A program made the translations under genes and the position numbers. Of a stretch of 64,000 bases of DNA, positions 1,413 to 58,341 are shown in pieces. Under the pieces are notes generated by a model that made no database searches, was not told where the DNA came from, and saw nothing but the letters and a program-made list of their open reading frames with translations. How positions within the stretch are numbered: the stretch's first letter is position 1; every line of letters begins with the position of its first letter. The stretch is from Pseudomonas helvetica. Its GTDB lineage: Bacteria > Pseudomonadota > Gammaproteobacteria > Pseudomonadales > Pseudomonadaceae. Location: positions 1,336,501 through 1,400,500 of the forward strand of contig NZ_CP150917.1 of NCBI RefSeq assembly GCF_039908645.1, given 5' to 3'.

Positions 1413-2768
1413 ATGATAAAAAGCCCTCCAGCCATAGACCCGAGTCTTTTCGACGCACTCGGCCAATCGCCTCACAAGGAAAAGCTGGTCGACTATCTGG
1501 CACTGCTCAAGCCGCTGGATGATCAGGGGCGTTACTTGCCGTTCGATGATCTGCGTTTTCGCTGGCCGCCCGGTCTTGATCCGACCTTATGCTGGGCCTT
1601 GGTGAAAAAGGCCCGCGTGGCGCAATACGTGCGTTTGTTGCCGCTGGGCGAGCCGAGCCAATGGGGCCAGTTCGTCCTGACACCGCTGGCACAGAAAACC
1701 CTCTCGACGGTTGATCGTCAGGCCACGACCGCCGCGCTGGAATACATGACTCATCATATCGGTGAGACGGCGCATTTCAGTTACCTGCTCAATGACCTGA
1801 TCGAAGACGAAGCGATCAGCAGCAGCCAGCTCGAGGGCGCCGCGACCACCGCGCTGGTGGCCAAGGACATGCTCAAGCGCAATCGCCTGCCGCGTACCCC
1901 GGACGAGCGAATGGTTATCGGCAACTACAAAATGATGATCTTCGCCTGGGAAAAACGTCACGAGCCATTGAGTGTCGAACTGATCCGGCAACTGCATCGT
2001 GTCGGCGTCGAAGGCATTGATGACGCGCTGTATTCGCCGGGACTTTTTCGCAGCAATGATCAAGTGGTGGTGCAGGATGGCGAAGGCAATACCGTTCATA
2101 CACCGCCGCCATCCACGGGCATCAGCGCTCGGCTCGATGGATTGGCGAGCTGGATCAACCAGCCCCACGACGACCCTCTACGCGTTGATTATGTGCACCC
2201 GATGATCAAGGCCATCGCCCTGCATTTTGCCCTGGGCTACGAGCATCCGTTTCGCGATGGCAATGGCCGGGTGGCGCGGGCGTTGTTTTACTGGTTCATG
2301 TTCAAGAATGACTTCTCGGCATTTCGCTACATCGCGATCAGCATTCTGCTGCGCAATGCGCCGGTGAAGTACGGTCGGTCTTATGTGCATACCGAGAGCG
2401 ACGCGCTGGACCTGACGTACTTCATCGATTACCAGTGTTCGGTGATTTTGCGGGCCGTGACCGGGTTCACGGCGGCTTATCAAAAAAGCCTGGTTGATGC
2501 CGAAGGTTTTGATCGCTGGCTGGAGGAATCCGGGCTTTTCGAGCAGTTGACCGAGAAGCAGCGCACGCTGTTTCAGATTGCCAAGAGCGGCAGGGCCAAG
2601 GAATTCACCGCGGTCAATGTGAAGGACAACCTGAACTGCTCCTACAACACGGCGGCCACGACCTTGAACGGTTTGGTTGAGTTGAAGCTGTTCGAGAAGA
2701 AAAAGATGGGCCGTGAGTGGGTGTTCTTTTTGCGCGAGTCATCACACATCAAAACAGACTGGTCGTAG
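1413..2768 (+). CDS. Fic-domain protein with winged-helix C-terminus (class II, self-inhibited)
   Basis: The 451-residue protein has the Fic catalytic motif HPFRDGNGR starting at H278 and an inhibitory motif SSQLEG at residues 137-142, which matches (S/T)xxxE(G/N) placed before the Fic core, i.e. class II. Fic enzymes transfer AMP or related groups from nucleotides to hydroxyl side chains. An N-terminal DUF4172-like region and a C-terminal winged-helix segment (about residues 385-440) suggest DNA binding or autoregulation. The ATG at 1413 is chosen because the open frame further upstream runs through the REPIN and the paired motifs. No antitoxin gene is adjacent, as expected for a class II protein. 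Target unknown. Confidence 0.9.
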   Translation: MIKSPPAIDPSLFDALGQSPHKEKLVDYLALLKPLDDQGRYLPFDDLRFRWPPGLDPTLCWALVKKARVAQYVRLLPLGEPSQWGQFVLTPLAQKTLSTVDRQATTAALEYMTHHIGETAHFSYLLNDLIEDEAISSSQLEGAATTALVAKDMLKRNRLPRTPDERMVIGNYKMMIFAWEKRHEPLSVELIRQLHRVGVEGIDDALYSPGLFRSNDQVVVQDGEGNTVHTPPPSTGISARLDGLASWINQPHDDPLRVDYVHPMIKAIALHFALGYEHPFRDGNGRVARALFYWFMFKNDFSAFRYIAISILLRNAPVKYGRSYVHTESDALDLTYFIDYQCSVILRAVTGFTAAYQKSLVDAEGFDRWLEESGLFEQLTEKQRTLFQIAKSGRAKEFTAVNVKDNLNCSYNTAATTLNGLVELKLFEKKKMGREWVFFLRESSHIKTDWS

Positions 2769-2800
2769 GCTGCGATCCAAACATCAAAAGATCGCAGCCT
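2767..2800. terminator. Hairpin repeat closing fic and the convergent DUF6124 gene
   Basis: AGGCTGCGATC (2767-2777) pairs perfectly with GATCGCAGCCT (2790-2800) around a 12-base loop; the hairpin overlaps the last base pairs of the fic stop. The flanking GCGGCAGCTCCTAC belongs to a repeat type seen again in part near 49720. It sits between two convergent genes and probably ends transcription from both sides, though there is no U-tract. Confidence 0.5.
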
Positions 2801-2826
2801 GCGGCAGCTCCTACGCGGTGGTGCTG

Positions 2827-3201
2827 TTAAGTCTCTGGCTGATCAATGTTATCCAGCGCGCGGTTTACCGCCAGTTCCGCCAGGGCCACCATCTGCTGAA
2901 TCGCCAGTGCGCTGTTGCGCTTGGGGCCGTCGAGTTCAAACGCCAGGTCGCTGGCCATGACATTGGCCGAGGCCAGGGTTTCGCAGGCGTGGGCCAGCAG
3001 GGTTTCGCTGTCGACCTCTGGGGCGATGACGAAGATGCAGCTGGGGCGGCGGTCGGTCAGCAACTTCTTGGTTTCAGGTAACAGCAGGTAATGATCGAGC
3101 GCCCGGTGGGCGGCGGCGTGGAGTTCTTTCGAGTCGAGGGACGCGTAGGGGGAGACGCTTTCGGCGTCGGCTTCGGGGGGATTGGGTGTGGGCTTGAACA
3201 T
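2827..3201 (-). CDS. DUF6124-type small protein
   Basis: A 124-residue protein starting MFKPTPNPPEAD, with an acidic, proline-rich start and a helical remainder (ALDHYLLLP, ETLASANVMASDLAFEL, IQQMVALAELAVNRAL). I recognise it as one of the small Pseudomonas proteins of the DUF6124/DUF3077 kind, which have no known function. No signal peptide or membrane segment is seen. The ATG at 3201 has AGGAG seven bases upstream; an in-frame extension to 3351 would run through a highly structured leader and is not used. The leader suggests strong post-transcriptional control. It is convergent with fic and otherwise isolated. Confidence 0.8.
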   Translation of the reverse strand: MFKPTPNPPEADAESVSPYASLDSKELHAAAHRALDHYLLLPETKKLLTDRRPSCIFVIAPEVDSETLLAHACETLASANVMASDLAFELDGPKRNSALAIQQMVALAELAVNRALDNIDQPET

Positions 3202-3208
3202 GATGAAA

Positions 3209-3426
3209 CTCCTAGTACGTAAGTAAGGAGCCGACACCATCGCTACCAAACGATTAGGGTGGCGGCCATACGCAGGTTGGTAGACCGGTGTACTAGGAAC
3301 CCGGCGCACCCGAAGGCGCCCTGCGCATGGCCACCATTTAGCAGAGGCCAAAATATGGCTCCGCAGAAGTGACGCTTTGCGCCTAGTACCACCGGGCTAC
3401 CAAACCCGATCGCTGATTTTCAGCGA
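3209..3426 (-). promoter_or_regulatory. Structured leader of the DUF6124 gene with three mutually complementary arms
   Basis: Read on the minus strand, arm A (3405-3382) is followed by its near-exact inverted copy B (3297-3276), then by A' (3251-3234 plus 3218-3211), a split direct copy of A. B can pair with A or with A' but not with both. The B/A' pairing covers part of the AGGAG ribosome-binding site (3213-3209). A perfect hairpin with a 7-bp stem and 3-base loop (3426-3410) precedes arm A. This resembles a translation switch or a repeated cis element; the arms are seen, the switching is inferred. Confidence 0.5.
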
Positions 3427-3604
3427 CCCGGAGACGATAGAGCCCAGTGCCCAAGCGCACAAGCCGGCGGATTCTGGCGTAGGTGTAGGGCGCAACGCAA
3501 GACGCTGTGGCTTGTGACGAACGCAGTCGCCATGCAATTAAACACCACCAAACTGATGTGGGGGCGGGCAAGCCCTAATCCCCATAGTCAAGCCGTTACG
3601 CGAC

Positions 3605-3755
3605 CCTGTAGCAGCTGGCGAAGCCTGCGTTCGAGTGCGAAGCGCTCGCAAAATGGCAAACTTCGTCCTTTCAGGGACACCGCATATCGCCTATTTGCGA
3701 CCGCTTCGTCCGGATGCGGCCCAGACCTAACGCAGGCTGCGCCAGCTGCTACAGG
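3605..3755. repeat. Long inverted-repeat element with matching 25-bp ends
   Basis: CCTGTAGCAGCTGGCG at the left end (3605-3629) returns inverted at the right end (3731-3755). The intervening ~100 bases contain further dyads (GCGAAGCGCTCGC). It is a REPIN-like element of a different sequence class from those beginning GTAGGAGC. The rest of the gap 3427-3853 holds no convincing gene. Confidence 0.65.
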
Positions 3756-3814
3756 GAATGTGCCGAGGCTGACATTCTTTGACTTACAGGCATTAAGGCA
3801 AGCCCGCTTGTATT

Positions 3815-3840
3815 GATCGTTCCCGCGCGTGGGAACGATC
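3815..3840. terminator. Perfect hairpin downstream of the DUF4197 gene
   Basis: GATCGTTCCC and GGGAACGATC form a 10-bp perfect stem around GCGCGT, 13 bases past the stop of the minus-strand DUF4197 gene. The U-tract is missing, so it could be a repeat rather than a strong intrinsic terminator. Confidence 0.45.
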
Positions 3841-3853
3841 AGCGGGGGGAGGG

Positions 3854-4543
3854 TTACAGCGCGCCGAAGACTTTCTTCGCCAGGCTGGTCGCGGCTTCCG
3901 CCGGGTTGGCGCGGATGCCTTCTTCTTTCTGGGCGATCATCTTGAACAGGCCGTCCAGGGCCTTTTCCGTCACGTAGCCTTCAACGTTGGCACTCTTGGC
4001 ATCGAGCACGCCGAAGGTTGCCGCCTGGCTGGCGAACGAGTTGTACTGCTTGGCCAGGCCCACCTGGTCAGTGGCTTGTTTGACGATCGGCAGGAACTTG
4101 GCGCGGATTTGTTCGCGGCTGGTCTTGTCCAGGTATTGGGTGGCCGAATCCTTGCCGCCGGTGAGGATGCCCTTGGCATCGGTCACGGTCATCTTTTTCA
4201 CCGCATCCACCAGCAGCGCCTGGGCCTGCGGCATGGCCGCTTCCGCCGCCTTGTTCATGCTGGTTTCCAGTTGATCGACCTGGTCCCCCATGCCGAACTG
4301 TTTCATCTTGCTGGCGACCTTGCCCAGTTTGCCCGGCAGTTCGATCTTCACTTCAGGGTTGTTGCTGAAACCGCCCGGTTTGCCGAGCGTGGTAACGGCC
4401 GCTACGGCCCCTTGGGCCAGGGCGTCCTTGAGACCGCCCGAGGCTTCGCCCTGGGAAAGACTGCCCAGCGACAGGGCCAGCGCGTTGGCGGAGATCAGCA
4501 GGCCAGCACAGAGGCTGGCGAAGCGAAAGGTAGAGCGGAGCAT
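3854..4543 (-). CDS. DUF4197 family exported protein
   Basis: A 229-residue protein with a clear signal peptide (basic start MLRSTFR, hydrophobic core, then ANALA as probable signal-peptidase I site near residue 23). The mature part has the features I associate with DUF4197: GLKDALAQG near its start, repeated helical segments, and a C-terminus rich in Ala/Lys. The function of the family is unknown; location is probably periplasm or outer envelope. The ATG at 4543 is preferred over one nine codons upstream because AAGGAA lies just before it and the signal peptide then begins properly. It is transcribed in the same direction as plsB, whose stop lies to the right of it, 56 bases upstream. Confidence 0.8.
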   Translation of the reverse strand: MLRSTFRFASLCAGLLISANALALSLGSLSQGEASGGLKDALAQGAVAAVTTLGKPGGFSNNPEVKIELPGKLGKVASKMKQFGMGDQVDQLETSMNKAAEAAMPQAQALLVDAVKKMTVTDAKGILTGGKDSATQYLDKTSREQIRAKFLPIVKQATDQVGLAKQYNSFASQAATFGVLDAKSANVEGYVTEKALDGLFKMIAQKEEGIRANPAEAATSLAKKVFGAL

Positions 4544-22624: not shown

Positions 22625-22755
22625 CTTTCCGGGTATACCCCGAAAAGCTTAAATCCACACACGTGTCGACACGATGACCTGGGTGCCTTCAGCTGATGCT
22701 GCTGGTTGGTCATTGGGATACGTGGAGGCCAAACCCGACTTATTAAGGAACTATC
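22625..22755 (+). promoter_or_regulatory. Long 5' leader of rpsB, probable S2 autoregulation site
   Basis: About 130 bases lie between the promoter and the rpsB ATG. They hold several small stems (TTCCGGGTATACCCCGAA-like dyad at the start, CAGCTGATGCTGCTGG in the middle) and GTGGAGG near the end. Gamma-proteobacterial rpsB mRNAs are known to carry a structured leader bound by ribosomal protein S2; position and length fit that, but I have not folded it. Confidence 0.45.
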
Positions 22756-58202: not shown

Positions 58203-58210
58203 CAGCCCTG

Positions 58211-58341
58211 TGTCGACGGATAGACACAGCCATCAAGGATGATGGTCAAGGAACATCGCAAGGACGTGATTCATCAGGACGATGAAAAGGAACACAAGGA
58301 ATAGGGAAAAAATGTGGGCGGGTCATACCGCCCCTTTTTTT
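58211..58341 (+). ncRNA. rsmZ: RsmZ small regulatory RNA
   Basis: The transcript from TGTCGACGGATAGACACA at 58211 carries seven or more GGA motifs (CGGAT, AAGGAT, AAGGAA, AAGGAC, CAGGAC, AAGGAA, AAGGAA), several in loops of hairpins such as CCATCAAGGATGATGG, and ends in a terminator (GGGCGG...CCGCCC then T7). This is RsmZ, which binds and titrates RsmA/RsmE and so relieves repression of secondary-metabolism and biofilm mRNAs. The place between rpoS and fdxA is the standard one. Length about 130. Confidence 0.93.

Follow-up and report, generated by a model that had tools for sequence, protein, structure and literature searches.

A chromosomal C4 antisense RNA that probably holds a DUF6124 gene off in Pseudomonas helvetica

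How is the DUF6124 gene on the minus strand of the window controlled? By the window, we mean the whole stretch of 64,000 nt of P. helvetica DNA that was analysed. An initial annotation of its sequence had described, in the leader of this gene, a perfect hairpin, an arm A, its inverted copy B and a second, split copy A', and had read them as a two-state translation switch or a repeated cis-acting element with an undescribed layout. A read-out of the sequence found the hairpin and all three arms where they had been placed. B is unable to pair with A and A' simultaneously, and pairing of B with A' covers part of the Shine-Dalgarno sequence, as b2 lies over it. The features of the locus, in 5' to 3' order, are as follows.

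3462-3434, minus strand: candidate sigma-70 promoter from a scan for promoter-like sites, with TTGTGC (3462-3457), 17 nt and TATCGT (3439-3434)
3440-3389, minus strand: c4-a1b1 motif RF03163, the upstream target of C4 (57.0 bits, gathering 46.7, model 1-53 of 53)
3426-3410, minus strand: perfect 5' hairpin TCGCTGA-AAA-TCAGCGA, the opening element of the c4-a1b1 motif
3403-3397, minus strand: a1 word TTGGTAG, complement of a', inside arm A (3405-3382)
3389-3382, minus strand: b1 word GTACTAGG, complement of b', inside arm A (3405-3382)
3341-3255, minus strand: C4 antisense RNA RF01695 (84.7 bits, gathering 45, model 1-87 of 87)
3297-3290, minus strand: b' word CCTAGTAC in the C4 hairpin loop, inside arm B (3297-3276)
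3283-3277, minus strand: a' word CTACCAA in an unpaired joining segment of C4, inside arm B
3266-3258, minus strand: 3' strand of the C4 closing stem, GCCGCCACC, with 3238-3230 as alternative partner
3249-3243, minus strand: a2 word TTGGTAG, first part of the split arm A'
3238-3230, minus strand: GGTGTCGGC, alternative-stem partner of the C4 3' strand
3218-3211, minus strand: b2 word GTACTAGG, overlapping the Shine-Dalgarno, second part of arm A'
3213-3209, minus strand: Shine-Dalgarno AGGAG, read from the sequence
3201-2827, minus strand: DUF6124 CDS of 124 aa, the ORF under putative control (PF19619, 103.9 bits, cut-off 27)

The leader is more than a chance arrangement. At -117 kcal/mol, the fold of its 256 nt lies far below those of 200 dinucleotide-shuffled versions (mean -87.4, sd 4.8; z = -6.1), and two curated Rfam families match at full length and above their gathering thresholds, namely C4 (RF01695) and, upstream of it, its target motif c4-a1b1 (RF03163). 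The latter is listed for gamma-Proteobacteria and phages in PMC2864571, and its match in the window shows no difference at the motif level. The Rfam model match places the a' and b' words in unpaired parts of C4. Both are complementary to a1b1 and again to a2b2 at the Shine-Dalgarno, in the order known from phage P1. At this locus (C02), the contiguous pairs number 7 for a1, 7 for a2, 8 for b1 and 12 for b2; the last count includes G-U pairs, runs over 3218-3207 and covers AGGAG. The leader is of an already described type, a C4 antisense RNA flanked by its a1b1 and a2b2 targets, and the layout that the initial annotation held to be undescribed is found in the phage P1 record and in these two Rfam families.

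These matches also bear on whether the leader represents a new class of ligand-binding riboswitch. A complex conserved leader, mutually exclusive pairings and a Shine-Dalgarno that is buried in the predicted fold would suit such a class. However, the full-length C4 and c4-a1b1 matches led us to reject it, and b', the fastest-changing part of C4, is a pairing word. No Rfam riboswitch family scored above gathering in the window, and none appeared up to E 1 in 2700-3900. We assign this reading next to no probability.

The immI region of phage P1 (c4-icd-ant) shows the same order, promoter-a1-b1-C4-a2-b2-ORF, and there, too, C4 is part of the transcript that it targets. The words are equally long in both (7, 8, 7 and 8 nt for a1, b1, a2 and b2), and in both, 7 nt separate a1 from b1. 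In the P1 record, a1 and b1 are annotated as putative, and the mature C4 has 77 nt. The target is icd-ant in P1, whereas it is a chromosomal DUF6124 gene here, and 26 copies occur in one genome here. A phage icd or antirepressor target, as in an immunity operon of the P1 type, was not found at the window locus; the next ORF with a Pfam match beyond DUF6124 is a convergent Fic-domain gene just downstream (1452-2768, plus strand). P1 has, by eye, a terminator-like stem before C4, but none was found at the window locus, where the one call was the a1 hairpin. Outside Pseudomonas, such a stem lies between b1 and C4 in 21 of 22 loci (from L214-L239) versus 12 of 66 shuffles, and in Pseudomonas the counts (9/26, 12/29 and 8/29) are little above those of the shuffles (14/78, 22/87 and 22/87). 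A terminator before C4 was, therefore, rejected as a general part of the arrangement, the Pseudomonas counts being near shuffle level.

In our assessment, the chromosomal C4 cassette most probably holds the DUF6124 gene off. A single promoter would give a transcript through a1b1, C4, a2b2 and the DUF6124 gene. C4 would fold into its own multi-stem form, from which point RNase P would probably excise it. The a' and b' loops of the freed RNA would pair with a2 and b2 of the mRNA of the same gene, and b' would mask the Shine-Dalgarno and stop translation. In P1, blocked translation lets Rho stop the transcript. The upstream a1b1 repeats the same two words and may act as a decoy or sponge, which makes it a candidate for relief of repression; DUF6124 would be released when C4 becomes limiting.

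Several observations are consistent with these steps. The best promoter-like site ends 7 nt 5' of the hairpin, so that a transcript from it would begin with a1b1; the promoter is probably at 3462-3434 and the transcript start at or just 5' of the hairpin. A stricter scan of the window locus reported no promoter. Promoter scores of at least 8 occurred at 12 of the 19 P. helvetica loci with a script-found hairpin versus 7% of shuffles, the loci being related to each other and the count leaving out the 7 of 26 C4 loci for which the script gave no hairpin. Marks compatible with RNase P are regular in P. helvetica, with GG[TAC] near the 5' end in 26/26 loci and CCACC at the 3' end in 25/26; CCACC is less regular elsewhere (20/29, 22/29 and 15/22). 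For phage C4, PMC5320573 describes processing at a GGW site by RNase P and pairing that blocks the ribosome. By analogy with that account and the P1 record, the mature C4 of the window probably has ~77-78 nt, starting from GG near 3336. The role of a1b1 as a sponge would be in line with IsrK, which on being supplied in trans activated its target ~140-fold, as given in PMC4825925.

As to the two-state switch or repeated cis-acting element of the initial annotation, what stands is a cis-encoded RNA element over the Shine-Dalgarno, repeated at 26 loci of the P. helvetica genome and with conserved pairings. B as the middle arm of a ligand switch does not stand; it is the recognition segment of an antisense RNA that folds on its own and that is probably freed by RNase P and capable of acting in trans. 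Both pairings are kept and co-change across loci (permutation tests without a phylogenetic null), so the lack of conservation or covariation that was to count against the annotation was not seen.

A two-state leader acting in cis would have B pair with A or A' and free no antisense RNA, as in the competing structures by which IsrK is controlled according to PMC4825925. A, B and A' are able to pair in this way. In the Salmonella Gifsy-1 IsrK-orf45-AnrP system described there, a leader RNA likewise precedes a gene that is silent in translation, but that system also comprises an intrinsic terminator and the gene of a prophage antirepressor, neither of which is present at the window locus. The isrK model (RF01394) matches the window leader with 33.2 bits, below its gathering threshold of 50, so that the leader is not assigned to this family. 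An alternative stem between the 3' strand of C4 and the stretch after a2 (3266-3258 with 3238-3230; 8 Watson-Crick pairs and 1 mismatch by eye, 5 contiguous pairs by script) recurs among loci. It covaries clearly in two of the four data sets (0/5000 permutations) and weakly in the other two, where 479/5000 and 219/5000 permutations reach the observed value. However, the C4 fold (-113.3 kcal/mol) is more stable than the cis pairings A:B (-103.1) and B:A' (-94.9) by 10 and 18 kcal/mol, respectively, and the closing stem of C4 covaries in all four sets (0/5000 permutations in each). In addition, neither word is paired within C4, which suits an intermolecular contact. We, therefore, regard a purely cis-acting leader as unlikely and a freed C4 as the better reading; a two-state contribution in cis may exist beside it. 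RNAcofold, which is blind to loop-loop contacts, gave no gain for mature C4 with either target (ddG 0.0). A hairpin between the Shine-Dalgarno and an anti-Shine-Dalgarno was also considered and rejected: the complement is visible, but covariation is weak, with 683, 2090, 129 and 474 of 5000 permutations reaching the observed value.

Next to folding, we matched the C4 words of each locus both to its own targets and to those of every other locus. The P. helvetica tests used 25 loci, C07 being left out as it has neither an ORF nor an a2. The permutations keep word composition and ignore relatedness, and the data sets are partly non-independent. In 25/25 P. helvetica loci, the a word fits both own targets by at least 6 nt, with 17 distinct a words by hand count. 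The b word fits b2 by at least 6 nt in 23/25 loci (not C01 and C21) and b1 in 18/25. Mean contiguous matches to own versus other loci were 7.6 versus 5.5 nt for a1, 7.0 versus 4.5 nt for a2, 7.4 versus 5.5 nt for b1 and 8.5 versus 5.5 nt for b2, and 0/20,000 re-pairings reached the observed mean score for each of the four pairings. The cognate C4 was best or tied best for a1 in 19, a2 in 21, b1 in 15 and b2 in 21 of the 25 loci. Ranking by duplex energy, which is noisier than word matching, placed the cognate first in 19/26 cases for the upstream target and in 13/26 for the Shine-Dalgarno target.

The same holds in other genomes. An a2 fit of at least 6 nt was counted by hand in 29/29 loci of genome G010 (30 of its 36 C4 matches were fetched and 29 used), in 24/29 loci of five other Pseudomonas genomes (exceptions L278, L283, L289, L293 and L295) and in 22/22 loci of other genera; in each of these sets, 0/5,000 re-pairings reached the observed mean for each pairing. 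The in-house C4 profile used here found no C4 in 1/59 Pseudomonas loci and 4/26 loci of other genera. Among 63 units from named genomes, drawn from the 65 C4-bearing loci among the best 80 of 329 DUF6124 loci, the fit reaches 6 nt or more for a2 in 62 and for b2 in 61.

Might the copies, instead, have been re-aimed at other host mRNAs, as is suggested, next to one other possibility, for a 21-member group of Acinetobacter baumannii in PMC5320573? The loop words do vary strongly between C4 copies. In pairs with a scaffold 90-95% identical, b' has a mean identity of 43% and is the same in 9/338, and a' has a mean of 76% and is the same in 128/338. A few DUF6124 genes without C4 also fit another C4 (L059 and L060 that of C07, L063 that of C13). 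Against this, the a word fits its own two targets in all 25 P. helvetica loci, and orthologous loci change their words while the gene stays. Moreover, a search for exact matches found the two-word target of the window in the 6.44 Mb genome only at its own a1b1 and a2b2; a third match is C4 itself on the opposite strand, and the reversed two-word pattern, used as a control, gave five matches. For the window locus at least, the word fit thus argues against a new role on host mRNAs, and we consider this alternative very improbable compared with a C4 addressed to its own gene. C4-less genes as trans targets were rejected as well, as the word fits are too few to clearly exceed chance.

How private is a word pair? 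The a word of the window is shared with C05 and C10, and judging from the compared sequences, the combination of a and b is private to the window locus within the genome, whose 25 other C4 copies mostly carry other words. Among 398 Pseudomonas genomes, the pair of the window was found in one, P. helvetica itself. It is also present in P. fluorescens HK44, which is evidently outside that sample. Full cross-matches, in which both words of a foreign C4 match no worse than the cognate ones, are so few (1/600 ordered pairs in P. helvetica and 3/812 in G010, two of the latter three in a close tandem pair) that the word pairs are largely distinct. We rejected the idea that a genome actively avoids using the same words twice, as cross-matches are no rarer than expected for independent words (2.4 in P. 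helvetica and 1.95 in G010) and rise to 57 and 33, respectively, with a looser margin.

The P. helvetica genome (6.44 Mb, one contig) contains 26 C4 matches, all above threshold, and 30 DUF6124 matches, 4 of them partial. By position, 17 C4/DUF6124 pairs are formed; nine full-length DUF6124 genes and four fragments have no C4. Nine C4 loci lack DUF6124: DUF3077 genes follow C01, C06 and C12, a Bro-N gene follows C03, and proteins without a Pfam family follow C09, C14 and C15. The protein at C20 resembles that of C14 by eye only, and C07 is followed by no plausible ORF. C07 (C1:425656-425742, locus L037) has no second target, and its a' fits its own a1 poorly but matches the leader word of two C4-less DUF6124 genes, L059 and L060; it is either a decaying remnant or a trans regulator. 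Seven of the nine C4-less full-length genes (L056-L061 and L063) keep, by eye, the 5' hairpin and an a-type word, as if C4 had been deleted between the repeated words. In one of the 17 pairs, C25 (locus L051, C1:5324265-5324746) beside C21, the DUF6124 gene is apparently frameshifted near its start. At L052 (C1:4299587-4304138), an intact C4-DUF6124 gene is followed by four partial DUF6124 copies; three of these copies recur at ~370-bp spacing with the intergenic sequence included.

Across the genus, 110 of the 119 sampled Pseudomonas genomes (P. helvetica included) have a C4 match, 109 of them above threshold, and 95/119 have a DUF6124 match. By hand count, more than 20 C4 copies occur in 42/119, the highest count being at least 33; a fuller search of G010 gave 36 matches, 35 above threshold. 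In the class-wide sample, C4 was found in 17/273 other genomes with 1-6 copies, up to 15 candidates being scored per genome. Among the best 80 of 329 DUF6124 loci, 65 have a C4 match, and the distance from the C4 end to the ATG is 45-55 nt in 62 of 67 C4 matches. In the closely examined Pseudomonas genomes, C4 stands mostly ahead of small proteins (DUF6124, DUF3077 and others). The other ORFs after C4 (L065-L094 and L240-L297) include ~52-aa proteins similar to MHALNPSKIRAAAHRAMALAALHANSSL; many proteins that otherwise differ have a [TV]P[ND]PP motif in common at the N-terminal end. Outside Pseudomonas, several C4 loci (L214-L239) precede ORFs in which we see a likeness to the phage regulators Rha, AntA and Bro-N. 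The DUF6124 protein itself matched 1 of 50,697 phage records and no plasmid record in tblastn searches.

Loci with the same flanks in P. helvetica and close relatives were then compared in 20 pairs. Outside these 20 are L171 and L175 (CDS 73-74%), L146, L160, L163 and L167, which lost C4, and the distant L184 and L185. The cassette is the same in 7/20 comparisons (96-100% identical). In 13/20, a different cassette (62-88% identical) lies between a conserved promoter (82-100%) and a conserved gene (89-98%); these do not equal 13 events, as L134, L136 and L137, for example, share one, and the change may lie on either side of a comparison. For L162 and L164, the flanks give evidence from a single side, and for L147 and L153, one of the two flanks is short. 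HK44 shares the cassette of the window locus, and FW300-N2E3, H3(2019) and 48H11 have another there, FW300-N2E3 being 97-99% identical over kilobases around it. The 11 differing cassettes that were checked (L162 and L166 left out) are all self-consistent, with a2 fits of at least 7 nt and b2 fits of at least 6 nt; a2 is seemingly lost in L166. Some of these cassettes also turn up at a different locus elsewhere (L144/L147 97%, L149/L148 95%) or at a different P. helvetica locus (L153/L043 95%, L142/L037 91%). Orthologues without C4 keep the a1 hairpin in L160, L163 and L167, and C4 is lost in L146.

These differences suggest that conserved genes exchange the regulatory RNA as one piece, and coded switches appear to change places among related strains in this way. 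Most simply, cassettes would be exchanged between loci by recombination in the conserved promoter and gene, which would leave the DUF6124 protein under purifying selection. For L144 and L149, orthologues with different cassettes, dN is 0.004 and dS 0.365, values that indicate purifying selection on DUF6124 orthologues.

In the predicted structure of the DUF6124 protein, a C-terminal helical hairpin (helices 65-89 and 93-118) is modelled with a block pLDDT of 83-93; the whole model has a pLDDT of 73, and its N-terminal half is of low confidence. For the structure alignment, 33 loci from the best 80 of 329 were taken together with the DUF6124 protein of the window. DUF6124 and DUF3077 look related, as hhalign gives a probability of 98% over the C-terminal helical hairpin with a DUF3077 set that came from a short profile search and may include intermediates. 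The DUF6124 protein matched no NCBIfam and no PHROGs entry, PADLOC returned no match for three proteins, and P1 Icd showed no relation to DUF6124. FadD10, the sole solved-structure sequence match up to E 1, was discarded as not credible (E 0.024).

Compared with other chromosomal C4-like RNAs, the case resembles the sRNAs of A. baumannii AB5075, for which the available part of PMC5320573 reports 21 chromosomal copies with variable a' loops and higher read coverage from the GGW motif. That part suggests incoming phages or other bacterial RNAs as targets, whereas here the words fit the own gene, and it makes no mention of matching own targets or of cassette exchange. The literature searched (titles and the beginnings of abstracts, with subscription journals and supplements outside) held no C4 ahead of DUF6124 and no matched words across chromosomal copies; within the same reach, DUF6124 was not mentioned and DUF3077 only in passing. 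As far as searched, the Pseudomonas scale, the words matched per locus and the differing whole cassettes at orthologous loci are, therefore, new.

C4 is best known as a phage immunity switch, and here it is widespread in Pseudomonas chromosomes. If each copy mainly silences its own gene, a genome would supply ~25 natural pairs of antisense RNA and target, each readable through two code words; they could serve studies of RNA recognition and circuit building, and the C4 lock would give a direct way into the role of DUF6124. More speculatively, and with rather low confidence, Pseudomonas may have made a phage-type immunity RNA into self-addressed locks for a family of small proteins (DUF6124, DUF3077 and others), which are interchangeable and pooled across the genus, the set of word pairs possibly serving as an RNA identity tag. 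Each genome would then have its own set, and a cassette swap would alter the set and not the proteins. Under such a tag, a gene that enters the cell with a word pair lacking a matching C4, or is left with one, would be expressed until that C4 accumulates, and bursts of DUF6124 would be expected when DNA is transferred or recombination has occurred.

Upstream of the C4 locus, the window contains a REP-like 28-nt inverted repeat (3604-3631 and 3729-3756, 96% complementary and 97 nt apart), of whose 16-nt core no third copy was found in the window at up to 2 mismatches. Further Rfam matches in the window are a PrrB/RsmZ RNA at 58209-58341 and a t44 RNA at 22638-22734, both on the plus strand.
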